Shown: one piece after another, positions 13,412-63,268 of the stretch | Position numbering within the stretch: the first letter of the stretch is position 1 | Layout: every line of letters starts with the position of its first letter | DNA from: Clostridiales bacterium CHKCI006 | Lineage (GTDB): Bacteria; Bacillota_I; Bacilli_A; Erysipelotrichales; Coprobacillaceae | Reading direction: 5' to 3' | Assembly: GCA_900018345.1 (NCBI GenBank) | Contig: FCNA01000021.1 | Coordinates: forward strand, 1 to 64,000 | Length of the DNA: 64,000 bases | The notes under the pieces: model-generated | The model's input: only the letters and a program-made list of their open reading frames with translations | Database searches by the model: none | Told to the model about the DNA's origin: nothing | Position numbers and translations under genes: made by a program

Positions 13412-13883
13412 ATGGCTTCCTCCGATAGATTTCTAATGTAAATGTTTCTTTAGGTTCACAGTGATCCAGCTCGAAATAAGCACTGAAATCAGCCAACCAG
13501 GCATCCCCTTGATGATCGCCTGGAATACGCGATAACAGGATCTGATCCGCCCAGGGATAACACTGCTTATAGATCGAAGCCCCACCGCAAATATAAAGTT
13601 CCTCTTTGGACTGGCGATAAGCTTGCAGCACTTCTTCTAAAGAGCTGACCCAGCGCGCACCTTCAGGCAGATCTAAAGGCTGACTGGAGAGCACCAGCGT
13701 CTGGCGTTTTGGTAAAGGACGTCCGATCGCTTCATAGGTCTTTCGCCCCATCAGGATCGTATGATTCAGTGTCGTCTTTTTGAAATGGGCAAAATCCTCC
13801 GCATGATGCCAGGGCATGCCTGAGGGACTCTGACTGTCTCCAATCAGGTTATGCCGGTCACAGGCAACGATGATCGTAATCAT
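13404..13883 (-). CDS. dfrA: Dihydrofolate reductase
   Basis: DHFR reduces dihydrofolate to tetrahydrofolate with NADPH. The 159-residue protein begins [15 protein letters not shown] and has the MPWHHAEDFAHFKKTT helix (acidic residue for substrate binding), the GRKTYEAIG NADPH motif and a GGASIY stretch. The start codon overlaps the thyA stop in TAATG, so the two are translationally coupled, as is usual for the thyA-folA pair that regenerates folate used by ThyA. Confidence 0.95.
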   Translation of the reverse strand: MITIIVACDRHNLIGDSQSPSGMPWHHAEDFAHFKKTTLNHTILMGRKTYEAIGRPLPKRQTLVLSSQPLDLPEGARWVSSLEEVLQAYRQSKEELYICGGASIYKQCYPWADQILLSRIPGDHQGDAWLADFSAYFELDHCEPKETFTLEIYRRKPYA

Positions 13884-14770
13884 TAGACACTGACCTTCCC
13901 TTTCAAACGCCCGTGGCTGCGATAGTTGACAATCTGGATATCTTCGATCTTGAAATCAAAGATGGACTTCACTTCCGGATTCAAAACGAGCTGACATTTT
14001 GGATACGGTTCACGCTCCAGCTGTTGTCTGATGACCTCAATGTGATCTTTATAGATGTGGGCATCACCGATCGTATGGATAAATTCCTTTGCCTGGTAAC
14101 CGCAAACCTGAGCCAGCATTGCCGTAAACAGGGCATAGGAGGCAATATTAAACGGCACGCCTAAAAATGTATCTGCGCTGCGCTGATAGAGCTGACTAGA
14201 TAAATACTTGCGGTCATGGGATACATAGAACTGTATAAATGCGTGACAAGGCGGTAAGGCCATCTCATCAACCTGCGCCGGATTCCAGGCACAGATGATA
14301 TGCCGACGTGAAAACGGATTGTTTTTCAGACTGTCTACCAGCTTGGCCAGCTGATCAACGCCCTGATCATTAAAGTTACGCCACTGATGTCCATAGACCG
14401 GACCGAGCTCACCGTATTTAACCACAAAAGGATCATCAGCCGGGAGGGCTTTGATCTTTGCAACGAATTCCTCCATGCTCTCTCCCTGGTAATCCGCTGA
14501 TTTTGTGTATGCCTCATATGGCCAATCATTCCAGATCTTCACATTACGATCGACCAGATACTTAATATTCGTATCTCCCTTGATAAACCAAAGGAGCTCT
14601 TCGGCAATTGGTCTTAAATACATTTTCTTTGTCGTCAATAAAGGAAAACCATCGTCAAGACGATAACGGGTCTGATAACCAAAGACGCTGCGCGTCCCGG
14701 TTCCCGTACGATCATCACGATCTTCACCGTTTTCCAGAATATAACGGCACATGTCTAAATATTCTTTCAT
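13883..14770 (-). CDS. thyA: Thymidylate synthase
   Basis: ThyA methylates dUMP to dTMP using methylene-tetrahydrofolate. The 295-residue protein shows the RTGTGT N-terminal loop, the catalytic cysteine in [10 protein letters not shown], the [19 protein letters not shown] stretch and the HIYKDHIE motif. The GTG nine bases upstream overlaps the GGGGTG ribosome site, so the ATG at 14770 is preferred. It starts 18 bases after the amidohydrolase stop, which places it in the same transcript. Confidence 0.96.
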
Positions 14771-14788
14771 TATATTCACCCCAGTCCA

Positions 14789-16123
14789 TTATACTATATT
14801 TTTTTCTTCGTTTAAACTAGCGGACCTTTTTTTTGCCTCAGCACTGAAGGTCGTCATTTGACTGGCTAGATCCTGGCGAAGCTGCGCCAGATCCTGATGC
14901 ACTAAACGATGCTCATGCACCAGCAGGTTTCCATTGACATAGACTTCCTGCACATTGGAGGCATTGGCACTGTAGACCAGCACGGCATAAGGATCGTGAA
15001 CAGGAAACATATTCACGCCATCCATATCCATCAGGATAAAATCGGCTTTCTTGCCTGCTTCCAGTGAGCCGATCTGTTGGGCCAGCCCGAGCGCCTCTGC
15101 TCCGCCGTAAGTCGCTAAGCGTACCACCTGACTGGCTGGAAAAATGGATCGATCATGAAGCCAGGTCTTTTGAAAACTCGGAATTAGACGCATCTGTACA
15201 AACAGATCCAGGGTATTCCCACTGGAGGGGCCATCTGTGCCCAGCCCAACACGTACCCCGGCGGCTAGAAGCTGATCTAAAGGCGCCACGCCTTTGCCGG
15301 CTTTTGTATTGGCTCCGATACAATGGATCAGGGAAACATCATGCTGCTTCATCAGTTCAATATCATGCGGTGTTAAATGAATGCCATGGACCATGATCAA
15401 CCGTGAGCTCAAGACACCGATATGATCTAAATATTCAACCGGTGTCATGGCATAGTTTTCCTCAAATGCCTGCATCTCATAATCCATTTCAGATACATGC
15501 ATCATCCAGGGAATCTGATAAGCCTGGCTCAAAGCATCGACCTGCTGCAACACTTCCTTAGGATTCGTATTGGTCGCATGTGGGGCAATCATGACCCGCA
15601 GTAAAGGATGAGCAGGATAAGCGGCCATTTTTTGGGCTATCTCCAGTCCCCCAAAAGGACGGGTCGTATCACAGGTGGCAAAATCGATGATCGTTTCACC
15701 TAGCAGGGCCCGCATCCCCATCTCACTTGCTGCCTTGTAAACAGCATCTTCAAAATAGTACATATCTGCCACACAGGTCACCCCGCCAAGCAGCATTTCC
15801 GCCATGGCGTATTTCGTGCTGGCCACGACCAGTTCAGAGGTCATGCAGGCATTCTCTAATGGAAATAGGAAGCGGCGTAAGCGATCAGGACAATCATCCC
15901 CCAAAGAGCGAAAAGGGATCATCCCCAGGTGGCTATGTCCATTGACAAACCCCGGCAATAACAGGCGATGCTTGCCATGAATGATCCTGCCCTCAAAATT
16001 GGCGGGCGGGATTTGTCCGACTTCGATGATCGTGTCATCCTCAAAAATCAGATAGCCATCCTCAAAAACATCCATCTTGGCATTCATGGTCAGAATATAC
16101 GCCTGGTCAATCATTGTCTTCAT
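14789..16123 (-). CDS. Amidohydrolase, MtaD-like purine/aminohydrolase
   Basis: This 444-residue metal-dependent hydrolase has the first metal site NGHSHLGM near residue 61, further histidines in PHATNTN and MMHVSEMDYE, and the catalytic aspartate in LGTDGPSSGNTLD. The layout matches the 5'-methylthioadenosine/S-adenosylhomocysteine deaminase branch (MtaD/SsnA/guanine deaminase). The position right after adenine deaminase and under a guanine riboswitch supports a purine or purine-nucleoside deaminase. The exact substrate cannot be read. Its start overlaps the end of ade by 17 bases. Confidence 0.85.
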   Translation of the reverse strand: MKTMIDQAYILTMNAKMDVFEDGYLIFEDDTIIEVGQIPPANFEGRIIHGKHRLLLPGFVNGHSHLGMIPFRSLGDDCPDRLRRFLFPLENACMTSELVVASTKYAMAEMLLGGVTCVADMYYFEDAVYKAASEMGMRALLGETIIDFATCDTTRPFGGLEIAQKMAAYPAHPLLRVMIAPHATNTNPKEVLQQVDALSQAYQIPWMMHVSEMDYEMQAFEENYAMTPVEYLDHIGVLSSRLIMVHGIHLTPHDIELMKQHDVSLIHCIGANTKAGKGVAPLDQLLAAGVRVGLGTDGPSSGNTLDLFVQMRLIPSFQKTWLHDRSIFPASQVVRLATYGGAEALGLAQQIGSLEAGKKADFILMDMDGVNMFPVHDPYAVLVYSANASNVQEVYVNGNLLVHEHRLVHQDLAQLRQDLASQMTTFSAEAKKRSASLNEEKNIV

Positions 16124-17831
16124 CTGTCAACACCCTTTCTATACATGGTATGATTTGTTGTCGGCGACAGTCAATCAAGCCGGCATCCGTGATCTTCAGT
16201 TCCGGTGAAACAGGCAAGGATAAAGTCGCAAATGACATGATCGGATGATCATGGACATACCCGGCCTGACGCATGCGCCGGGTCACTTCTTCGAGTTCGC
16301 TGGCAGTGACTGCAAGCGGACCATCGCTGATGATCCCACCTACCGGAAGATGAACCATAGCCTGACCGTGGTCATCAACAATGCCATAGCCTCCCTGACA
16401 GGCTATGACTTGATTAGCGATCTTGCACATTTTTTTGGCATCATTTCCCATTACCATCAGATTATGATGATCATGAGCCCAGCTGGTCGCTAATGCCGCA
16501 GAGGACTGGAGCGCGTTTCGTACAAAGCCGAAAGCATGCTGACCATTTTTGCCATAGCGCTCAAATACCATGACTAGATTCAAGCCGACCTTTTCATAGG
16601 CGATCTGGCCATTGATGATCGGAATGCTTTCGATCACGCGATGTGTAAAGGTAGAATGCGGTTCGATGACCATCACGTTTGCCTGCACTGCCTTCCCCTG
16701 ATAACCATGTAATTGGAAGATCTCCTCCGTGAGCGGATCTAAGTGAATAGAATGATAGAGAGATAAAGAAAAGGAAGCTTCAGGAATAGGGTAGGATGCT
16801 ATCGGCTTGCCATCCTTAAAGACAGCTTCGATCTGCCAGCTGGCGATATCTCGCAGCAAGACCAGATCCGCTTTCTTACCCGGGGCAATCATCCCTCGAT
16901 CGTCCAAATGCATACGTCTGGCTGGAGTATAGGTCGCACAGTAGATGGCTTGGGTCTGCGGCATCCCGTATGCCATCGCCTTTTTGACCACCTCGTTGAG
17001 ATGTCCTTTCGCATAGAGCTTATCGGCCATGCAATCATCTGTCACAAAGCAGAAATGGTCGTAAAGCGCATGCGTAACCAGGGTTTGGACATTCTCAGGT
17101 GTCACGGATTTATCCTGAATCTCTAAGAACATCCCCTTGGCTGCCTTCTCTAGGATTGAGGCAGGTGTCTGGTGCGTATGATCCGCATCGACGCCGGCAG
17201 CTAAATAGATGGACAGATCCTGACCTGTGAGTTTAGGACAATGTCCTTCAATCAAAAAATCAGGACGCATTTGTTTACATAATTGAATCAGACGTCTTGT
17301 CTTTGAATCTTCCTGTTTCAGATCATTAAAATTCATCACTTCACCCAGACAGCGCATATGTGGATCTTTCAACAGCTCGGACACCTCTCCCTCATCCAGG
17401 ATGCCCCCTGTTGTTTCCAGATCCTCTCGTGTTGATGGAACAGAAGAAGGGATACCAAAAAAAATATCCAATGACAAAGCATTGGATATCATCTCATGAA
17501 TTCCCTCCAGACCAGCCACATTGGCAATTTCGTGAGGATCCGCAACAAGCGTTGTTGTTCCCCAACGTAAGGCCTGCTTGTAAAAAGCGCCGGGCCAGGT
17601 CATTGAACTTTCAATATGCATATGAATGTCAACCAGTCCCGGAATGAGATACATACCACTGCCATCAAGCGTTTTCTGGCTGTCTAAGGCAAGTGCCTTG
17701 TCGACATCCACGATGAGACCATCCTTAACGGCGACATCTTTTTGGACGAATCGGCACAAGGCACTTTCAAAGACATATGCGTTTTGAATCAAAAGATCAC
17801 AGGATCTTAACCATTTAAGGTTTGATTCCAT
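16107..17831 (-). CDS. ade: Adenine deaminase
   Basis: Ade converts adenine to hypoxanthine and ammonia. The protein has the bacterial Ade signature: metal-binding HMHIESS near residue 75, DPHEIANVAG, the GHCPKL stretch and a second half with a DHHNLMVMGN motif and GPLAVTASELEEV. Its length of about 574 residues is typical. The start is uncertain: the ATG at 17831 and a GTG at 17843 both lie inside the 3' end of potD and neither has a strong Shine-Dalgarno site, so coupling to potD translation is likely. Confidence 0.93.
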   Translation of the reverse strand: MESNLKWLRSCDLLIQNAYVFESALCRFVQKDVAVKDGLIVDVDKALALDSQKTLDGSGMYLIPGLVDIHMHIESSMTWPGAFYKQALRWGTTTLVADPHEIANVAGLEGIHEMISNALSLDIFFGIPSSVPSTREDLETTGGILDEGEVSELLKDPHMRCLGEVMNFNDLKQEDSKTRRLIQLCKQMRPDFLIEGHCPKLTGQDLSIYLAAGVDADHTHQTPASILEKAAKGMFLEIQDKSVTPENVQTLVTHALYDHFCFVTDDCMADKLYAKGHLNEVVKKAMAYGMPQTQAIYCATYTPARRMHLDDRGMIAPGKKADLVLLRDIASWQIEAVFKDGKPIASYPIPEASFSLSLYHSIHLDPLTEEIFQLHGYQGKAVQANVMVIEPHSTFTHRVIESIPIINGQIAYEKVGLNLVMVFERYGKNGQHAFGFVRNALQSSAALATSWAHDHHNLMVMGNDAKKMCKIANQVIACQGGYGIVDDHGQAMVHLPVGGIISDGPLAVTASELEEVTRRMRQAGYVHDHPIMSFATLSLPVSPELKITDAGLIDCRRQQIIPCIERVLTDEDND

Positions 17832-18871
17832 TTCGTTGTCCACTCATCAAGCAGAGGGAGTACGAAAGTGTAATCAACTGTTTTGGCGTTGTTCTTCACA
17901 ACATTGAAGGTTGTTTCTACGTTTGTACCTTCAGTAACCTGTACATTACCATTCGTAGGAACTTCACCTAAACCATCATTTTCTAATGACTGTGTTCTTG
18001 TCTGTGTTTCTGCACTCAAGCGATAGTTGATCCATTCATAAGCTAAATCCAGGTTCTTACAGTTTTTCGTAATTTCAATCGTGTTGAAGCTTACATAGCT
18101 GCCGCTTTCAGGGTAAACCAGTTTGGCATCTGGACAAGCACCGATCACGGTGTTATAAGCATAGTCACCGATTACGGCCACAGCAATCTCACCACTGGAG
18201 AACATATTCGCAACATCTGCAGATTTAGAATAAGTCTTGACAATATTTGGTTTCAGCTCAGCTAACGCAGCAAAAGCGGCTTCACCATTGTCAGATTTAA
18301 TATCGACACCTGCATAATCACTGGCAACATGTACCATGGCAGGACCAAATGTATTACTGATGACAGGAATCGCAATCTTACCTTTTAATTCTGGTCTCCA
18401 TAAATCAGCCCATTCGGTGATTTCAAAACCAACAGCTTCTTCATCATAGATAATACCCATGGCATTGACCGTATAAGGTAAACCATATCCGCCTGAATCA
18501 ATATTTAACTGTTTTGCGATATCGATCAAAGCATCATAGTTTTCAATTCTGGAAGTATCAATTTTCTGGAACAAGCCATCAGCATAGCCTTCAGCGGCTT
18601 TAGCCTGAGATAATTCCATCACATCAATCTCAGAGTTATCCGGATTGGCTTCCAGTTTCGTATAACGGTCAGAAACTAAGCCTAATTCCTTGACAACCGA
18701 ACAATCGAATGCTTCTTCGAAAGGCCCGAAAACATCTCTCGCTGTTGTATCTTCAGCTAAGTTGAAGCTGGAAACATAGAGCTGAGGTTTTCCGCTGTCA
18801 CTGCTGCCACAGCCAGTCATCGTGATAGCCATTGCGCATGCTAATGCACCTGCAATCCATTTTTTCTTCAT
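17807..18871 (-). CDS. potD: PotD-like extracellular substrate-binding lipoprotein
   Basis: The 354-residue protein has a lipoprotein signal peptide ending MTGC at Cys21, then a periplasmic-binding fold of the spermidine/putrescine (PotD/PotF) type, with stretches such as GLPYTVNAMGIIYD and GEIAVAVIGDY. It delivers solute to PotB/PotC. The name follows the family; because the operon is led by a guanine riboswitch and followed by purine deaminases, the real substrate is probably a purine or nucleoside. The ATG follows GAAGGAGAAGGAG. The 3' end overlaps ade. Confidence 0.88.
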   Translation of the reverse strand: MKKKWIAGALACAMAITMTGCGSSDSGKPQLYVSSFNLAEDTTARDVFGPFEEAFDCSVVKELGLVSDRYTKLEANPDNSEIDVMELSQAKAAEGYADGLFQKIDTSRIENYDALIDIAKQLNIDSGGYGLPYTVNAMGIIYDEEAVGFEITEWADLWRPELKGKIAIPVISNTFGPAMVHVASDYAGVDIKSDNGEAAFAALAELKPNIVKTYSKSADVANMFSSGEIAVAVIGDYAYNTVIGACPDAKLVYPESGSYVSFNTIEITKNCKNLDLAYEWINYRLSAETQTRTQSLENDGLGEVPTNGNVQVTEGTNVETTFNVVKNNAKTVDYTFVLPLLDEWTTKWNQTLNG

Positions 18872-18895
18872 TTTTTCTCCTTCTCCTTCATCTTT

Positions 18896-19933
18896 TTATA
18901 CTAAGACAATTTTGCCTTTTGGTAAGGATACACATACTGTATCCTGTGCCTGCAAGACATGATCACTCGATCCGTTGACCACGATCACCCCTAAAGGCGT
19001 ATCTAATTCATACTGATAGCTCTTACCGAGGAAAGTACGAACGATGACCTTACCGGTAATCTTGTTTTCAACGTTATCCTGTGAAGACACGATCTGAATA
19101 TCCTCTGGACGAATCGTTCCTTTTGGATCTTCTTTGTCGCATCCATTGTCTACTACAAATTCACTGCCGTCACTCGCAATATAAGTATGTGCATCTTTTC
19201 GTTTTAAATCAATAAAGTTTTCAAAGCCAATAAAACGAGCAACGAATTCAGTTTTTGGCGTACGATAGATGTTTTCAGGCGTATCGTACTGCTCGATCAC
19301 ACCGCCGTTCATAACAGCGACTTTATCTGAAATTGAGAAACATTCTTCCTGATCATGTGTAACAAAGATCGTCGTGATGCCCAGCTTACGCTGCAGACGT
19401 TTGATCTCCACACGCATGTTGATTCTTAATTTTGCATCCAGATTACTTAACGGTTCATCCAGCAGCAACAATTTTGGTTCAACGACCAGGGCTCTCGCTA
19501 AAGCGACACGCTGTCTTTGTCCACCGGAAAGCTGTTTAGGGAAACGTTTTTCGAATCCTTTCAGATCGCAGACCTCCAAAATATTTTCAACGCGCTTCTT
19601 GATTTCTTCCTTAGAAACTTTTTGCAGTTTCAAACCAAAAGCCACATTATCAAAAACACTTAAATGTGGGAACAGTGCATAGCTCTGGAACACCAGACCG
19701 AAATTACGTTTATGCACCGGAACCTTGGTCATATCCGTGTCATCCAGAATAAACTGCCCATGCGTTGGTTCGATGAAACCCGCCACGACACGCAGCGTTG
19801 TCGTCTTACCACAACCACTTGGTCCAAGCAAGCTGACTAACTCGCCTTTTTCAATTTCCAGATTCAAACCTTCCAAAATATTGTTTTTCTTGTCATAGCT
19901 GACATTGATATCCTGCAGATTAAAAAATGCCAT
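18896..19933 (-). CDS. potA: PotA-like ABC transporter ATPase
   Basis: The 345-residue ATPase powers the PotBC permease. It shows Walker A GPSGCGKTT (about 36-44), the LSGGQRQRVALARAL signature (about 133-147), Walker B LLLLDEPLSNLD and a C-terminal TOBE-type regulatory domain. Length and domain order fit PotA. Its ATG follows TAGGAGGAG, 12 bases after the potC stop. See potD for the substrate question. Confidence 0.93.
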   Translation of the reverse strand: MAFFNLQDINVSYDKKNNILEGLNLEIEKGELVSLLGPSGCGKTTTLRVVAGFIEPTHGQFILDDTDMTKVPVHKRNFGLVFQSYALFPHLSVFDNVAFGLKLQKVSKEEIKKRVENILEVCDLKGFEKRFPKQLSGGQRQRVALARALVVEPKLLLLDEPLSNLDAKLRINMRVEIKRLQRKLGITTIFVTHDQEECFSISDKVAVMNGGVIEQYDTPENIYRTPKTEFVARFIGFENFIDLKRKDAHTYIASDGSEFVVDNGCDKEDPKGTIRPEDIQIVSSQDNVENKITGKVIVRTFLGKSYQYELDTPLGVIVVNGSSDHVLQAQDTVCVSLPKGKIVLV

Positions 19934-19945
19934 CGCAATCTCCTC

Positions 19946-20728
19946 CTATTTTGATAACGCTGCAATACCCAGCGTCTTTTCAACTACGAACATGATGCCG
20001 ATCGTTGCAAGCATCATTAAGACAGAGAATGCTGGAACGGTTGGATCATAACCGGATTCCAGATAACCCATCAATGTCGCAGGAAGTGTCGTTGTCCCCG
20101 GACCAATCAGGAACATGGAAACAGGAACATTATTAAATGAATTGATAAATGCTAACAGGAACGCAGAACTGATTCCTGAAGTGATGTTAGGTAAAACAAT
20201 CGTGAAGAACGTTTTGATCTTTCCGCAGCCAAGCGTCCAGGCAGCTTCTTCAATGGAAAAATCAAACTGTTCCAAGGAACTGCCGACAATTCGAATGACA
20301 TATGGCAGGACGATCAAAAAGTGTCCGAATAACAGACCGATATCATAAGGAATCTGCAACTGAACCACGATGACCTGGAACAAAGCAAAACCTAAGACCG
20401 TTCCCGGTACGATGGTTGGTGATAAGAAGAAGCTCTTGATCAGCTGTTTTCCCTTGATGGAATAACGCGCCAACGCATATGCTCCCGGGATCCCCACCAG
20501 CAATGCCAGCAGAGTGGCCACTAAAGCTAAACGCAAACTGTAAAAGCAGGCACTCATAAAGGAATTAGAACTCAAAGCCTTACCGAACCATTTGAAAGTA
20601 AAGCCCTGAATAGGGAACTGAACGACATTCGCTTCACCGAAGGCCGTAATGGTCACAATGACCAGAGGCAGAAGTAAAAAGGCAAAAACCAGCACCGTCC
20701 AGACACCCAAAAAACGATTCTTACGCAT
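19946..20728 (-). CDS. potC: PotC-like ABC permease
   Basis: This 260-residue membrane protein has six predicted transmembrane segments and the cytoplasmic EAA loop (EEAAWTLGCGKIKTFFTIVLP, about residues 165-185) that contacts the ATPase. It matches the PotC half of a Pot-type permease. The ATG at 20728 overlaps the potB stop by eight bases and has GAGGTGGAG upstream; the GTG further upstream is unlikely. Confidence 0.92.
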   Translation of the reverse strand: MRKNRFLGVWTVLVFAFLLLPLVIVTITAFGEANVVQFPIQGFTFKWFGKALSSNSFMSACFYSLRLALVATLLALLVGIPGAYALARYSIKGKQLIKSFFLSPTIVPGTVLGFALFQVIVVQLQIPYDIGLLFGHFLIVLPYVIRIVGSSLEQFDFSIEEAAWTLGCGKIKTFFTIVLPNITSGISSAFLLAFINSFNNVPVSMFLIGPGTTTLPATLMGYLESGYDPTVPAFSVLMMLATIGIMFVVEKTLGIAALSK

Positions 20729-21557
20729 TGTCTCCACCTCGCTTATCTAAACGATTGGCAATCGTATTGAGAACTTTCATTGCGATTACCGTCGTAATGA
20801 TCATAATCACGGCAATGACACTGGTTCCTTCCCAGTCACCAAGTGACATTGACTTCTCATATATAAAGGTCGCCATGACCGTATTGGAATTTCCACCTAA
20901 TAACTGTGGGGTCGTATAAGCACTCAATGTTCCCGTAAACACTAAGGTGCTGCCAACGATGATGCCCGGCAAGCTTAATGGCAGAATGACTTTCAGGAAG
21001 GCAACCAGACGATTGGCTCCGAGGCTTTCCGCTGCTTCCATCATATCATTCTCGATATTGTCCATGACACCAGCCAATGTTGTCAGCATCAATGGCAAAA
21101 ATAAATAAACTGAACCAATCACAATCGCAAATTCAGTGTAAAGCATCTGGATCGGTTCTTCCACAATCCCGATACTTGTCAGGATCTGATTAATGATACC
21201 ATTGCGTCCTAAGATTGTGATCCATGCAAAGCTGCGGATAACGGAGTTCGTCAACAGCGGGAAGATCGAAATCGTCATCAGGATCCCTTTGACTGACTGC
21301 TTGCAGCGAGACATATAATATGCCGCTGGCACAGCCAGGAAGACACAGATAATGGTTGTAATCAAGGCTACTCTCAATGTCCGGATAAAGATCCTCACAT
21401 TTAACGGATCCTGGAAGAACTGAATATAACTATCCAGGGTAACTCCGGCCTCTGTAAAGATCGTCGGCAGGAAGATGGAAAGCAGCGGCATTACAAGAAA
21501 GACCGCAAGCAAAATAATGCCCGGTACTAATAACAGATATTTCATCTGGTTTTTCAT
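20721..21557 (-). CDS. potB: PotB-like ABC permease
   Basis: The 278-residue protein has six transmembrane segments and an EAA loop (MEAAESLGANRLVAFLKVILP). It is the first gene of the operon. The upstream frame overlaps the attenuator hairpin, so the ATG at 21557, preceded by GGAGGGAGAG, is the real start. Its expression is governed by the guanine riboswitch just upstream. Confidence 0.93.
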   Translation of the reverse strand: MKNQMKYLLLVPGIILLAVFLVMPLLSIFLPTIFTEAGVTLDSYIQFFQDPLNVRIFIRTLRVALITTIICVFLAVPAAYYMSRCKQSVKGILMTISIFPLLTNSVIRSFAWITILGRNGIINQILTSIGIVEEPIQMLYTEFAIVIGSVYLFLPLMLTTLAGVMDNIENDMMEAAESLGANRLVAFLKVILPLSLPGIIVGSTLVFTGTLSAYTTPQLLGGNSNTVMATFIYEKSMSLGDWEGTSVIAVIMIITTVIAMKVLNTIANRLDKRGGDNA

Positions 21558-21576
21558 TGTAACTCTCCCTCCAAAA

Positions 21577-21607
21577 TAAAAAAGTTGCATTACCTGATCT
21601 GCAACCT
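21577..21607 (-). terminator. Riboswitch attenuator terminator
   Basis: On the minus strand AGGTTGCA and TGCAACTT form an 8-pair stem with one wobble, followed by six T residues. The 5' arm GTTGCA can alternatively pair with TGCGAC just upstream (an antiterminator), and that TGCGAC can in turn extend helix P1 of the aptamer. The three mutually exclusive pairings fit a ligand-dependent off switch. Confidence 0.88.
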
Positions 21608-21617
21608 AAAAAAGTCG

Positions 21618-21694
21618 CATAATCATAGTCTGAAAATTTACGGTTTTCAGGTAGAAACGTTTGCCCCGTATTGGCAAATATATATGATAATACT
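21618..21694 (-). ncRNA. Guanine-type purine riboswitch
   Basis: Read on the minus strand, the sequence has all conserved parts of the purine aptamer: helix P2 TTTGCC/GGCAAA with the L2 loop AATACGG, the J2/3 core GTTTCTACC, helix P3 CTGAAAA/TTTTCAG closing the L3 loop CCGTAAA, and the 3' P1 strand GACTATG. The residue equivalent to position 74 is C (GACTATG, not GATTATG), which in known purine riboswitches specifies guanine or hypoxanthine over adenine. It lies between a near-consensus promoter and an attenuator ahead of potB. High guanine should stop transcription of the importer operon. Confidence 0.95.
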
Positions 21695-21702
21695 ACAGTC
21701 AA

Positions 21703-21731
21703 ATTATACCACCCCGTTTTAGGGTTGTCTA
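21703..21731 (-). promoter_or_regulatory. Promoter of the riboswitch-potB operon
   Basis: On the minus strand TAGACA, 17 bases and TATAAT lie just upstream of the aptamer, so transcription begins at its 5' edge. Confidence 0.85.
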
Positions 21732-26821: not shown

Positions 26822-26846
26822 CAAAAAAAGGTGGTCAAACCACCTT
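26822..26846 (-). terminator. Terminator after the NlpC/P60 gene
   Basis: On the minus strand AAGGTGG-TTTGA-CCACCTT is followed by seven T residues; the stem begins at the stop codon. Confidence 0.85.
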
Positions 26847-28161
26847 AATCAAAATGCCCATAACCCTCAATGCGGCTTGCCCAGTAAGAATTAGACAAGC
26901 TGGCAATATAAACACCCGTACTTGAAGAACCGGCATGAATAAACTGATTATTGCCTATGTAGATCCCGACATGTGTCAGATGCCCAGTCGTATTGAAGAA
27001 GACCAAATCACCGGGCTGTGGTGATGAGACAAGCGTACAGGCATAATACTGCAGCGTCACTGTACGTGGGATCGCGATCCCTGCCTGACGATAAGACCAC
27101 TGTGCCAGACCGGAACAGTCAAAGACATTCGGACCGGTGCCGCCATAGACATAACGACAGCCATTTTTAGAGAGCGCCGCCTGTACGATACCGGAATGAC
27201 CCGAATAATTCGGTGTTGACGAAGATGAGGAACCACCCGAAGATCCACTGCCTCCCGAAGAAGATGAACCACCATTGCCTGAGGAAGATGAACCACTGCC
27301 TCCCGATGATGAAGATCCATTATTCGAAGAAGACGCCTGTTGCTGTTGCTCCTGCTCCTGTTTTAAACGTTCTTCTTCTTTCTGACGTTCCTCTTCTGCC
27401 AGAATGCGTTTTTCGTTTTCTGTCAAAGACTCGTCAATGGCCCCGATCTCCACATTATAATTATTCATGACAGCGGTCTGTTCATCCAGCGTAGACTGGT
27501 AGCTGTCCGCCTGTTCACTCAACGCATTTTCTAGCTCGGTCTGCTGTGTCTGCAGGACGAAAAGACTGTCATAACTCTCCTGCACGGCAACTTCTTTTTC
27601 TTCCAGTTCCTTTTTATCGTTAGCCAGACCGGTAATCAACTCTTTATCATAGCTTGTCAATTCTTCAACAGACTGCATGCGGTTCAGCAATTCATCAAAG
27701 CTGCCTGCACTTAAGATCACGTTGATCAACTGACCGCCATTGACATAGGACTGCATGATATAGAGACGATCCGCCAATTTGGTTTCCTTGTCCTGGATAT
27801 CGGTATTCAGCTGAGCGATGCTTCCCTGTAATACTTCCAGCTCGTTTTGCACAGAGGCGATCTGCTGATTTGTCGTTTCAAGCTGGGTCTGTACCGCCGC
27901 GAGATCAGACATGGTCGTATCCAGCTGTCCCTGTGTATCCGCAATCGAAGATTTAATGCTTTCGTTTTTTTCTTTTAAATAATCACTAAACTCGGAACAA
28001 ACATTCAGATCACTGCGTGATAAGGATGTCGTATTTTTACATTTCTCTGTGTATTCGTCCTCCTTGCCGGCAAAATTCGTTGCCTGCACTGTTTCACTTG
28101 GATGACAGATGACCCCCAGGGCCAAACATCCGGCTAATAAAAGCCCGAACTTTTTCTTCAT
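26845..28161 (-). CDS. Secreted NlpC/P60 peptidoglycan endopeptidase with coiled coil
   Basis: The 438-residue protein has a signal peptide (about 1-27, ending VQA), a long coiled coil (about 60-260) like PcsB/CwlO-type proteins, a Gly/Ser-rich linker (about 270-315) and a C-terminal NlpC/P60 domain with the catalytic Cys in FDCSGLAQW, His in LTHVGIYIG and a third polar/His residue in FIHAG. It probably cuts stem peptides during growth and division, perhaps activated through FtsEX-like partners; that part is family inference. The ATG follows GGGGAGGAAG, and a TATAAT box lies upstream near 28190. Confidence 0.93.
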   Translation of the reverse strand: MKKKFGLLLAGCLALGVICHPSETVQATNFAGKEDEYTEKCKNTTSLSRSDLNVCSEFSDYLKEKNESIKSSIADTQGQLDTTMSDLAAVQTQLETTNQQIASVQNELEVLQGSIAQLNTDIQDKETKLADRLYIMQSYVNGGQLINVILSAGSFDELLNRMQSVEELTSYDKELITGLANDKKELEEKEVAVQESYDSLFVLQTQQTELENALSEQADSYQSTLDEQTAVMNNYNVEIGAIDESLTENEKRILAEEERQKEEERLKQEQEQQQQASSSNNGSSSSGGSGSSSSGNGGSSSSGGSGSSGGSSSSSTPNYSGHSGIVQAALSKNGCRYVYGGTGPNVFDCSGLAQWSYRQAGIAIPRTVTLQYYACTLVSSPQPGDLVFFNTTGHLTHVGIYIGNNQFIHAGSSSTGVYIASLSNSYWASRIEGYGHFD

Positions 28162-37286: not shown

Positions 37287-37365
37287 GTATTAACCTCCTC
37301 AAAAGTAGTTATCATGTCTATTTTACTCTGATTGCTTCAAAAAGACAATCCATATAATGAGCATA

Positions 37366-37436
37366 AAATAAAAACAGGCTGGTTAGAGCCTGTTTTTCTG
37401 GCATGGGAAAATTGGGAGAGGGGTAAACCATGCCGT
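37366..37436 (-). ncRNA. Candidate small RNA 1 with C-rich loop
   Basis: On the minus strand a TATAAT box (37443-37448) sets a start near 37436. Two bases in, GGCATGG/CCATGCC (37428-37434 with 37400-37406) makes a perfect 7-pair hairpin whose 21-base loop contains ACCCCTCTCCC. A strong terminator hairpin AAAAACAGGCT/AGCCTGTTTTT (37370-37397) follows after a few bases. The result is a compact RNA of about 65-70 bases with no ORF of note. The C-rich loop is complementary to Shine-Dalgarno-like G-rich sequence. It is a candidate from sequence only. Confidence 0.65.
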
Positions 37437-37442
37437 GTCTTC

Positions 37443-37471
37443 ATTATATCCTTTGACATGATTTATTATAA
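37443..37471 (-). promoter_or_regulatory. Promoter of small RNA 1
   Basis: On the minus strand TTATAA, 17 bases and a perfect TATAAT. The -35 box matches the consensus at four of six positions. Confidence 0.6.
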
Positions 37472-37521
37472 GACAGTTTTATGAATCATATATGAACATA
37501 AACAAAAACTTCATTTCTTTT

Positions 37522-37585
37522 TCCAAAGAAAAAGTAGCACCAGGTGCTACGGGGAGGAATTAGTGCTCATCACTTCACTAACTTC
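37522..37585 (-). ncRNA. Candidate small RNA 2 with C-rich linker
   Basis: On the minus strand an extended -10 box (TGATATGAT) sets a start near 37585. The RNA would begin with the hairpin AGTTAGTG/CACTAATT (one wobble, ten-base loop, 37558-37583), continue through a single-stranded CCTCCCC (37551-37557) and end in the terminator GTAGCACC-T-GGTGCTAC followed by TTTTTCTTT (37525-37550). Size about 62 bases. The plan, a 5' hairpin plus C-rich stretch plus terminator, repeats that of RNA 1 although the sequences differ. Confidence 0.6.
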
Positions 37586-37591
37586 AAGCAC

Positions 37592-37600
37592 ATCATATCA
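37592..37600 (-). promoter_or_regulatory. Extended -10 promoter of small RNA 2
   Basis: TGATATGAT on the minus strand, an extended -10 element. The -35 region falls within the palindrome at 37614-37634. Confidence 0.5.
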
Positions 37601-37613
37601 ACCCTATTTGAAC

Positions 37614-37634
37614 TATATGTGAACAATTCACATA
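37614..37634. repeat. Perfect palindrome over the small RNA 2 -35 region
   Basis: ATATGTGAA-CAA-TTCACATAT has nine-base perfect arms. Its position over the expected -35 region suggests an operator. The TGTGA...TCACA halves recall CRP/FNR-type sites, but the gap is five rather than six bases. Confidence 0.5.
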
Positions 37635-37659
37635 TTTCTCAAACATTTTTCTTTTTTTG

Positions 37660-60038: not shown

Positions 60039-61521
60039 ATTCTTCACCCCATCCATCTAAATTTGCAAGCAGGATTCTGGTCTGTTGTTCCCGTGCTTTT
60101 CGGGTTTCTTCAGCCAGAAGTTGATTACTCATTTTTCTGTAATGCTTTACTGCGCTTATGTTTTTATGCCCCAGAAGTTTTGCTATCGTCCAGTCATCCA
60201 AATGCATTTCTGTCAACTTAACTCCGTAAGACCGCCGGAACATATGGGAACTGAATTGAAACAGTTTCCCATCATCATCCCGTAGATCCTCACTTTTTAT
60301 CAACCGCAGCACCTTGTGCTTTATGGTTGTATATTGAAGCGGGCGGCTGGGAGCTTTGGCATCCACGAAGATATACTCGGTTTTACCATACTGATCGTAA
60401 GTACAATCGATGGCTTTCTGGATCAGAGCTACCAATTCTGCACTGATAGGCTTTTCGAATGTTCGTGTTTTTACCTGATCGATCCGGATAATATCCAGCC
60501 CATTTCTCTTTGACAGGCAGTCTGTATGCAGTGTCAGCGTATCAGAGATTCTTGTACCAAGCATTTGGTGGATTACCATACATCGTGCCAACTGGATATC
60601 CAGTTTTGTGATATGAGCGTTCAGCCGCTTCAGTTCCTCATCGGAATAAGCTCGGAATACTGGCTGCACTTCCGGCGGGATATCTGTGTTGATGAATAAG
60701 GATTCCAGATGGCTGTATCCATATAGTTTGCCGATACTTTCCAATACTGCCCTCAGTTTCAGAATGTCATCGCTGTTTCCTCTGCCGAATGAACCATTGG
60801 TGTTGATATAGACAAGATATTCTTCCAGCAGATCCCGGTCAACATCGGCGCAGGAATTGATCTTTACGCCTTTCTCCATCAGGTATCCGGAAAACTTCCG
60901 GATGGAAGTCAGCTCCCGTTTCACGGTTCCGATTTTTTCATATTTTATATGCAGGAAAATTGCCTGTTTCACTTCCTCCCTTAGACCTTCCTGCAAGATT
61001 CCGGTAAAATCCAGAGTTTCCGTTTTATAAATCGGATTTTCTTTAATAGGGATATCCAGTTTTTTCAGAGCCCATATATCCTTTTCCCGCTCCGGTCGCA
61101 TATCCTCCGGCTGAATGAAACGCAGGAAGCGTTTCAGGTGCTGAAGCACAGGAGCATCCGTCCGGCATATCGTTCCATACAAAGTTTCCTTCTCTTTATA
61201 AAATGGGATACCATTCTGCAGCATCCATATCTTTAACAGTTCGATCCATTTGGATGGCTGCCAGCCGAGGAAGCTGTCAGGTATGTTTTTTCGCAATTGA
61301 AGGGCTTGGCACACCTGTTTGTAATATGCTTTTTCATGGCAGATGGTGTTCAGTGACACCTGGCCGCCCCTGTACAGGAAGTAGCGTCTGTATTCTTCCC
61401 GCATGGTTTCTTTGGGAAGAAGGGAAAGGTCAATAAAATTACTTTTTCCAATGGCTCTTTGCGGCAGATTTCCGGAAGTTCCATAGCATGCCAGCTCCCA
61501 ATAGTACAATCTATTTTCCAT
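60013..61521 (-). CDS. Tyrosine recombinase, third of trio
   Basis: The 502-residue protein has a long N-terminal DNA-binding part (to about 290) and a C-terminal catalytic domain with Arg in LGTRISDTL, HxxR in SHMFRRSYG, His in LLGHKNI and the tyrosine in KHYRKMS. It resembles the TnpB branch of Tn554 recombinases. The start follows GAAAGGAGG and overlaps the preceding gene by 11 bases. Confidence 0.87.
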   Translation of the reverse strand: MENRLYYWELACYGTSGNLPQRAIGKSNFIDLSLLPKETMREEYRRYFLYRGGQVSLNTICHEKAYYKQVCQALQLRKNIPDSFLGWQPSKWIELLKIWMLQNGIPFYKEKETLYGTICRTDAPVLQHLKRFLRFIQPEDMRPEREKDIWALKKLDIPIKENPIYKTETLDFTGILQEGLREEVKQAIFLHIKYEKIGTVKRELTSIRKFSGYLMEKGVKINSCADVDRDLLEEYLVYINTNGSFGRGNSDDILKLRAVLESIGKLYGYSHLESLFINTDIPPEVQPVFRAYSDEELKRLNAHITKLDIQLARCMVIHQMLGTRISDTLTLHTDCLSKRNGLDIIRIDQVKTRTFEKPISAELVALIQKAIDCTYDQYGKTEYIFVDAKAPSRPLQYTTIKHKVLRLIKSEDLRDDDGKLFQFSSHMFRRSYGVKLTEMHLDDWTIAKLLGHKNISAVKHYRKMSNQLLAEETRKAREQQTRILLANLDGWGEEYEQIRQDD

Positions 61522-63268
61522 CTCTGCCTCCTTTCTTTCTCAAACCAGCCGCCAGATTATGTTCCGGCTTTTGGAAAAATCCCATATTCTCTTTTGCAAT
61601 CTTTTTGGGCATGTAGTCTATATACTGTTCTGTCATTTCCAGATAATCATGTCCCAGGTAATCCCGTACTCCCTGTATGGATACGCCATTGTCATAAAGC
61701 ATCGTCGCCACTGTATGGCGGTAATCATGGGACTGGAACAGGTAATCCCCGCCGTCAATCTCATGGTCTTCGCAGAACTTTTTCATCTGATGACGGAAAG
61801 TCATGCTCCGGTAAGGGCCGCCGTTTTTGTTCGTAAACAGGTAGTCATCCGGCCCGATCTGGTGGGTTTTTATATAAACTTCCATGATCCTATACAGGCC
61901 CTCTGCTATGGGAATCCGCTTATAATTCTTCATCTTTACCTGATACACCTGAATCCAGGTATCATGGTTCTGGCGATAATAGGCATTTCCCTTCAGGGTA
62001 CATACCTCGCTGATCCGCAGGCCCAGACACCAGAGATGGAGGTACATGCAGCGAAGGTGATCCGGGAGCAGATGCAGCTTACCCAACACTTCTTCGCAGA
62101 CCTCCGGTGAAACGCTCCGGTCATGATGTTTGACGATTATCTTTTTTTGATAAAGCTCTGGCTGGAACGGCATCGTTTCCCGATAATTTCGGGCGATGAG
62201 GAACCGGAAGAAATGATTCAGCCCGGATATATATGCATTAAAGGATTTTGCGGAAATCCCGCTTTCCTGCAATTCACCGAGGTAATCTTCAATCTGTTTT
62301 GTCGTACAGCTTGCGGCATCCTGACCTTGTTCCGATAAACGTACCAGGAAACGCTCCAACAGGCAGTATCTTGTCGTTATCGTGCTGATGGCCTGACCGG
62401 TAACGCCGATCTGGTATTTCATATATTCCTTGGCGTACCTGCGGTTTTCCTTGTGACTGATCTCTGTGAAGGACACACTGGTCACTGAACTGCTCCGATT
62501 CAGCCGATGCTCCGCAATTCTCAATCCATCCAGGTACCAGATATTCGCCTGCCAGTTAATCTGTGCATTATGCAGGAAGACTGTTTTCCGGCATAAATTC
62601 AGGATCGCAAGCATCTGGTGTTTATAAGTTTCACTGGGAGTGTGTTCGGTCAGATAAGCGTTGAACATCTGCTCCTGTGCCAAGTCCATATCCTCAATAT
62701 CCTGGATCGCCTGCTCGGTACAGAAATCGTACAGATACTGTAGTCCAGTCAATCGTTGTCTCCGTTGGATTGAATTTTTCGTAATGGCAAGGATTTCATT
62801 CAGTGTCGTAAAAACCTGTTCTTTTACATGCCATGCACAGGGTTTTGTGAAATCCCAGACCATATTTGGGCGGTTCCTGACGGAATCCAGTTCCATCGCC
62901 AGTTCCTGATCCGGATGATAGGGAAGGAACAGAATTGTTTCTTCCAGCCGCCACCGGCATTGATTCTTTCCTGCCAGGGTTTTCATCCGTCTGCGGATAT
63001 CCGCCTGTTTTGTCCTGTCATACGCAAGGAGATAACGGTCAGCCGATTGGATCTGGCAGGCGGAGAACAGATAGTTCTGGTATGCTTTCCGCAGTGGATA
63101 GTCCATCTCCAGAATATCCTGAATCCCCATTTCTGCCAGGAACTTCTTCAGCCTGCTTTTGGCGGTCTTGGCTACATCTTCGCAGGAATCAATGGTTTCA
63201 ATGATCTGCTCCGGCAACGCTTTGGGTTTTTCTTCCTGCCGCCATTCCCGTATTGCATAGGCAGGCAT
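61511..63268 (-). CDS. tnpB: Tyrosine recombinase, second of trio (TnpB-like)
   Basis: The 585-residue protein has a large N-terminal region, a core-binding domain (about 290-390) and a catalytic domain with GLRISEVCTL, SHDYRHTVATML, YLGHDYLEMTEQY and the nucleophile in that last stretch. Length and order fit Tn554 TnpB. It begins 16 bases after the first recombinase gene, with GGAGGTGATAGG before its ATG. Confidence 0.88.
   Translation of the reverse strand: MPAYAIREWRQEEKPKALPEQIIETIDSCEDVAKTAKSRLKKFLAEMGIQDILEMDYPLRKAYQNYLFSACQIQSADRYLLAYDRTKQADIRRRMKTLAGKNQCRWRLEETILFLPYHPDQELAMELDSVRNRPNMVWDFTKPCAWHVKEQVFTTLNEILAITKNSIQRRQRLTGLQYLYDFCTEQAIQDIEDMDLAQEQMFNAYLTEHTPSETYKHQMLAILNLCRKTVFLHNAQINWQANIWYLDGLRIAEHRLNRSSSVTSVSFTEISHKENRRYAKEYMKYQIGVTGQAISTITTRYCLLERFLVRLSEQGQDAASCTTKQIEDYLGELQESGISAKSFNAYISGLNHFFRFLIARNYRETMPFQPELYQKKIIVKHHDRSVSPEVCEEVLGKLHLLPDHLRCMYLHLWCLGLRISEVCTLKGNAYYRQNHDTWIQVYQVKMKNYKRIPIAEGLYRIMEVYIKTHQIGPDDYLFTNKNGGPYRSMTFRHQMKKFCEDHEIDGGDYLFQSHDYRHTVATMLYDNGVSIQGVRDYLGHDYLEMTEQYIDYMPKKIAKENMGFFQKPEHNLAAGLRKKGGRDGK

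Follow-up and report, generated by a model that had tools for sequence, protein, structure and literature searches.

The intergenic gap between a flippase gene (Polysacc_synt) and a ROK gene, at 37287–37659 of the window (the whole 64,000-nt stretch of DNA that we analysed), carries two tandem minus-strand units, A and B, which we assign, with a probability of roughly three in four, to a response-regulator-controlled, multicopy system of small RNAs (sRNAs) with C-rich anti-Shine-Dalgarno sequences; unit A would be a member of the sRNA family itself and unit B an additional sRNA within its regulon. A preliminary description of this DNA had proposed two minus-strand sRNA genes of common plan in a gap of 373 bases. 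The length agrees, and the proposal is strengthened by a regulatory promoter that both units share and by family-wide conservation with covariation.

Both units have the promoter TTCAYA-N5-TTCAWA-N9-TANNAT at the same distance, a module in which two direct-repeat half-sites, 11 bp apart, stand 9 nt before the -10 element (promoter and RNA features are on the minus strand throughout). In unit A, the box is an exact match to the pattern, TTCATA-TATGA-TTCATA with an 11-bp period (37480–37496), and the -10 element TATAAT follows 9 nt past it (37465–37470), a spacing identical in all box matches in the genome and the family; the module in full reads TTCATA-TATGA-TTCATA-AAACTGTCT-TATAAT. The predicted RNA A, a member of the family-wide sRNA family of about 95 nt (37365–37459), is the best window match of covariance models built without it. 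It begins with a 5' mini-hairpin, AUGUC-AAAG-GAUAU (37446–37459; UGUC...GACA in the family), which appears in the fold and corresponds to helix 1 of alignment A3, where 93% of cells are paired. A second stem-loop, with GGCATGG and CCATGCC closing a 21-nt loop (37400–37434), was found by folding and has a covarying stem; it displays the C-rich element CCCCTCTCCC (37414–37423), near-invariant in the family. The Rho-independent terminator (37370–37397) was recovered by both terminator scan and folding.

These boundaries differ from those first proposed, in which this RNA started some 20 nt too far downstream and measured 60–75 nt. Since the model match begins at 37458 and the -10 element of the shared promoter is at 37470–37465, a length of about 95 nt is predicted instead. 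The -10 element originally used was evidently a second TATAAT (37443–37448), which lies inside the transcript leader and aligns, in the alignment to the models R1 and R2 described below, with the AU-rich AUAAUAAUA linker of the family. The C-rich segment, previously placed between hairpins, actually falls within the 21-nt loop of the second one. A 40-aa open reading frame across RNA A (37459–37337) reads through the terminator and was rejected as unsupported.

Unit B has the box TTCACA-TATAG-TTCAAA (37607–37623) and, identified from the sequence and the combined box and -10 match, the -10 element TATGAT (37592–37597) with TG-A before it (an extended -10); its module in full is TTCACA-TATAG-TTCAAA-TAGGGTTGA-TATGAT. 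RNA B, predicted by folding at about 58 nt (37529–37586), has the same promoter and plan as RNA A, with a C-rich unpaired segment, CCTCCCC (37551–37557), and a Rho-independent terminator (37534–37550). Both terminators stand as first described, and so do both C-rich stretches, which folding predicts to be unpaired. The 5' hairpin proposed for this RNA, GTGCTT/GAGCAC, fared less well: it begins 1 nt past the -10 element, which makes transcription of the whole hairpin unlikely, and an alternative 8-bp hairpin, GUUAGUG/CACUAAU, appears the likelier 5' hairpin from its predicted pairing. A palindrome in the sequence, ATATGTGAA-TTG-TTCACATAT (37615–37635), overlaps the first half of the unit B box, and the plus strand has a near-match of the box at 37627–37643.

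Compared with shuffled sequences, unit A folds with a z score of -5.0 (0 of 200 shuffles as good), and unit B moderately, with a z score of -2.35 (5 of 200). Searches of the gap against Rfam 15 returned nothing above threshold, the best sub-threshold matches being chance-like; weak matches to pT181 ctRNA, ncr1015 and ar14 were rejected as far below gathering scores. Comparing the whole gap with 60 relatives at the DNA level gave short chance-level matches only, and a genome-contig search with the flippase as bait returned only distant homologues without the locus. It took the promoter pattern and the covariance model to reveal conservation of the gap. We consider it extremely unlikely that the units are chance promoter- and terminator-like strings in AT-rich intergenic DNA. 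This would fit the unit B fold, only moderately above shuffles, and generic promoter and terminator scans of the gap, whose scores barely exceeded those of shuffles; it is at odds with the enrichment of the box, the confinement of covariance-model matches to the family and the covariation, all described below, and is already contradicted for unit A.

We searched the whole 3.3-Mb genome for the pattern TTCANA-N5-TTCANA-N9-TANNAT, finding five exact copies and none of the reversed-pattern control. Downstream of four of the five lie a short C-rich transcript and a terminator (units A–D), and the fifth precedes the gene for a 148–152-aa protein of unknown family. Units C and D are both sRNA-like. 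Unit C (G000:C4, L008 430–512), which follows a tRNA-like end, has the box, TTTTTTCTCCC and a terminator; unit D (G000:C8, L009 minus strand, box at 1135), which follows a D-Ala-D-Ala ligase-like gene, has a 5' hairpin, ATCTCCC and a terminator. The box with a subsequent TGTC occurs once in the genome, at unit A, and outside the taxonomic family this combined pattern was absent from all 118 genomes searched. Within the family, the box is present in 35 of 43 genomes, at about 107 sites versus about 12 for the reversed control. On the transcribed strand, a C-rich motif follows the box at 49 of 97 distinct sites; the opposite strand has one at 4 sites, and 16 sites have one upstream, a count partly due to tandem copies.

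To the RNAs themselves we fitted two covariance models, both excluding the window: R1, from 21 relatives, and the wider R2, from 41 sequences. The sRNAs of the family have a 5' UGUC...GACA mini-hairpin at the predicted start, the AU-rich linker AUAAUAAUA, a stem-loop with a stem of 7–13 bp around a 16–28-nt loop that carries CCCCUCUCCC or a closely similar sequence, and a terminator that commonly has UUCCCC as its loop. Unit A, matched here by models built only from relatives, was the top hit in the 64-kb window with R1 (37458–37365, minus strand, 28.4 bits, E = 0.018; next match 15.1 bits) and with R2 (36.0 bits, E = 6e-4; next match 18.1 bits), scores that become weak when scaled to the whole genome (E of about 1 for R1 and about 0.03 for R2). 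The family membership of unit A rests on model and promoter together, as the model score by itself would not stand out genome-wide. Unit B gave no match to either model up to E = 10 in the window, and units C and D also fail the covariance model (C reaches 20.3 bits, E = 0.23); for units B, C and D the assignment is by promoter and plan only, and unit B has nothing more than these in common with the family. The conservation expected of genuine sRNA genes in close relatives, and the recovery of the locus by a covariance model from related genomes, are therefore seen for the RNA of unit A, where hairpins and C-rich sequence have not been lost; for unit B, only promoter and general plan recur. 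Another model match in the same genome, at L310, has neither a terminator nor a C-rich stem-loop and was set aside as chance.

Across 295 genomes of the order, R1 matched 29 of the 43 members of the family, in nine genera, and none of the 252 others. In genus g11, R1 matches have a TTCATA-N5-TTCATA box upstream at the same position, which provides an independent check because R1 contains no promoter; the exact box pattern gave at most one match in the seven g11 genomes, at a different place. In a model-fitted alignment of 50 sequences, which leans towards its own structure, paired cells make up 91.7% of the total, compared with 38–56% in slid controls; both sides vary in 20 of the 24 pairs, and the covariation score was 0.424 versus 0.179 in shuffles (0 of 500 as high). 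Inspecting the stems independently of the model, we found 31 different stems around an almost constant C-rich loop, CCCCUCUCCC. Neighbour genes are shared among g6, g7, g8 and g19, between g4 and g11, and between g12 and g17, indicating that the RNA loci were inherited in place.

The surroundings of these loci also bear on whether the units are separate sRNA genes or, as we think very unlikely, 5' leaders or attenuators acting in cis on the flippase gene, combined with a 3' terminator of the ROK gene. Both units do lie on the coding strand between the two genes, and the unit B terminator, about 110 nt past the ROK stop codon, could terminate ROK transcription. The flippase has a separate promoter-like site, however, a sigma-70-like TTGTCT-17-TAAAAT (37320–37348, minus strand), downstream of the RNA A terminator, and the copies in relatives adjoin other genes, with neither ROK nor a flippase beside any family locus. 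What tandem and dispersed copies have in common is the promoter, not a downstream gene.

Some RNA copies in genus g4 lack the box and have a TTGACA-type promoter instead. The second g4 copy, with a CCCCUCUCCC loop (L110 1048–1142, L062 1391–1484, L117 892–985, L120 1050–1146), is boxless in this way, lies directly upstream of the box-driven copy and adjoins the CTP synthase gene pyrG. Genus g4 also has a longer variant (L061, L059, L060, L111), in which an extra hairpin with a UCCCCUC loop precedes a UCCCUCUCCC stem-loop and which is in tandem in G035.

The box is not confined to sRNAs, and many copies precede protein genes. In five genera (g6, g7, g8, g12 and g19), it precedes the start of a gene for an OmpR-class regulator (domains Response_reg and Trans_reg_C) by about 47 nt, with a kinase gene (HAMP and HisKA) downstream, and we infer that this regulator controls its own gene together with the sRNAs. 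Upstream of the box-bearing regulator gene lie prmC and a GNAT gene. Other genes preceded by the box encode MreB/Mbl, a Zn_peptidase_2 membrane peptidase, two Amidase_2 proteins and a surface polysaccharide deacetylase. These associations (mreB, zinc peptidase, amidases and the regulator operon) suggest that the activating signal is the state of the cell envelope. No close orthologue of the box-bearing regulator was found among the 17 OmpR-class regulators of the window's genome (best identity 36–37%), and considering these 17 proteins as candidate activators produced none that clearly fits. One OmpR-class regulator gene of this genome (L154, about 1444, G000:C146) has an 11-bp repeat of its own before the -10 element, TTCAATCCACCTTCAATC (TTCAAT-N5-TTCAAT), which by its sequence is probably a different autoregulatory box.

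The general repeat of PhoP-type regulators is TTHAYA with an 11-bp period. TTCAYA at that period fits it, and the best NCBIfam match of the box-bearing regulator is PhoB, though far below cut-off (179 versus 296 bits), so the box could be a Pho box through which PhoP or PhoB controls the sRNAs in phosphate starvation. We regard this as quite unlikely, as no pst or other phosphate gene was recognised at the inspected box sites and the protein-coding members are envelope genes.

In the reading that we favour, control of the sRNA genes by an envelope-responsive regulator, an OmpR/PhoB-class protein would bind the two TTCAYA half-sites, 11 bp apart and 9 nt before the -10 element, replacing a -35 box and switching the genes on. 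The resulting RNA of about 95 nt would comprise the 5' mini-hairpin, the AU-rich linker, the stem raising the CCCCUCUCCC loop, and the terminator. Its exposed C-rich loop would pair with purine-rich ribosome-binding sites and repress the mRNAs, and in many relatives the terminator loop UUCCCC could also pair with such sites.

We looked for mRNAs that these loops could recognise. In the window, predicted pairing of the RNA A loop is stronger at start regions (-9.8 kcal/mol) than within coding regions (-6.7 kcal/mol). Shuffled RNA A loops are at least as good as the real loop against start regions (mean -11.6 kcal/mol), and its best target in the window was equalled by 242 of 300 shuffles. The pairings reported earlier with GGGAGAG before potB and GGGGTGAA before thyA are present in the sequence, but these genes are unsupported as specific targets because shuffled loops pair equally well. 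The gene called potB (20721–21557) encodes the first permease of an ABC transporter; it lies behind a purine riboswitch and has deaminase-type genes downstream, so the label is probably wrong and a purine-type transporter likelier. The riboswitch (21606–21707, minus strand) leads a region at 13883–21590 with two ABC permeases, an ATPase, a binding protein, an adenine-deaminase-like gene, an amidohydrolase and thyA.

For RNA B, UUCCUCCCCGU pairs at 11 of 11 positions with the ribosome-binding region ACGGGGAGGAA of an NlpC/P60 hydrolase gene (26845–28161, minus strand), an energy reached by 4 of 300 shuffled loops; judged from complementarity, this pairing would fit an envelope regulon and is a lead, not proof. 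The hydrolase is a PcsB/RipC-like cell-wall enzyme. Shared targets sought through GGGAGAGG before ATG in the 43 genomes were mostly genus-limited and unconvincing. The only cross-genus pair was a D,D-carboxypeptidase-like protein in g9 and g11, and no target common to many genera was found in this set.

The stem of the family is free to change and the loop is frozen, raising the question of which partner fixes the decamer CCCCUCUCCC. It could be a protein or another RNA (a ribosome-associated factor or an sRNA sponge) instead of Shine-Dalgarno sequences. The decamer is far more constant than diverse mRNA targets require and differs from the classical anti-Shine-Dalgarno CCUCC, and the RNA A loop does no better than shuffled loops against start regions of the window. 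We nevertheless find such a partner unlikely: all studied Firmicutes C-rich sRNAs named in PMC4132741 pair with G-rich ribosome-binding sites, type II and type III copies alter the motif (UCCCUCUCCC and CCCUUCUUCCCC) and remain C-rich, and the 11-bp pairing of unit B with the cell-wall hydrolase site is perfect.

Pairing of C-rich loops with Shine-Dalgarno sequences is established for LhrC, RNAIII, RsaE, SprD and FsrA (PMC4132741), and we compared the units with the closest of the known systems. The csRNAs (Ccn) of streptococci are multicopy, sometimes tandem RNAs of about 60–220 nt that depend on CiaR, an OmpR-class two-component regulator; their promoters have a direct repeat, NTTAAG-N5-TTTAAG-N10, with an invariant G, close upstream of the -10 element, and the RNAs combine a terminator hairpin with an unpaired segment complementary to ribosome-binding sites (PMC3091779, PMC8186281). 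The family described here is csRNA-like in plan, being multicopy, with a hexamer-N5-hexamer repeat adjoining the -10 element and an anti-Shine-Dalgarno unpaired segment. It differs in the box itself, TTCAYA-N5-TTCAWA-N9 with half-sites TTCATA, TTCACA and TTCAAA, and in its lineage; its C-rich sequence is in a large stem-loop, whereas that of csRNAs is mainly between two hairpins, and no anti-AUG (CAU) requirement is seen. LhrC1-5 and relatives of Listeria are likewise multicopy, controlled by LisRK and linked to cell-envelope stress, and their UCCC motifs, in stem-loop and terminator loop, bind G-rich ribosome-binding sites (PMC4132741). The present RNAs share the copy number and the placement of UCCC in both loops, and probably two-component control, but the LisR-responsive element lies upstream of -53, whereas the box here is directly beside the -10 element, and the 5' mini-hairpin and stem sequences are unrelated. 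The Rfam LhrC model found nothing at the gathering threshold, nor at E <= 5 in the gap or E <= 1 in six relatives. RsaE/RoxS, also Firmicutes sRNAs, have a C-rich motif that pairs with Shine-Dalgarno sequences (PMC4132741); their secondary structure is different, the family here is multicopy with its own promoter box, and the RsaE/RoxS models matched neither the gap nor the relatives. The preliminary description knew of no matching family, a view borne out by Rfam and by the open-access papers searched, in which we found nothing on such an RNA in this lineage. We therefore regard this as a new sRNA family that works like csRNAs and LhrC while, as far as could be tested here, belonging to neither.

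We somewhat favour the broader view that, in a gut-type lineage, probably of the Erysipelotrichales, multicopy sRNAs under a dedicated two-component regulator form a family-wide system that controls translation of cell-envelope genes. This system would have evolved separately from csRNAs and LhrC and converged on their solution, with a response-regulator box beside the -10 element and an unvarying C-rich decamer displayed in the loops of stem-loop and terminator. If so, this bacterial family would gain its first trans-acting regulatory sRNA family on record (none was found in the literature searched), and CiaR-csRNA and LisR-LhrC would be joined by a third case in which an OmpR-class system drives redundant C-rich sRNAs. 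It would suggest a recurrent Firmicutes design rule, in which envelope sensing damps translation by way of a common C-rich decoy for ribosome-binding sites, and, as promoter box and candidate regulator come with the RNAs, the regulon would be testable at once. Elsewhere in the window, at 61511–63268 (minus strand), a gene encodes a protein of 585 aa whose C-terminal half contains a tyrosine recombinase domain (XerD/XerC-like); it is unusually long for that protein family.
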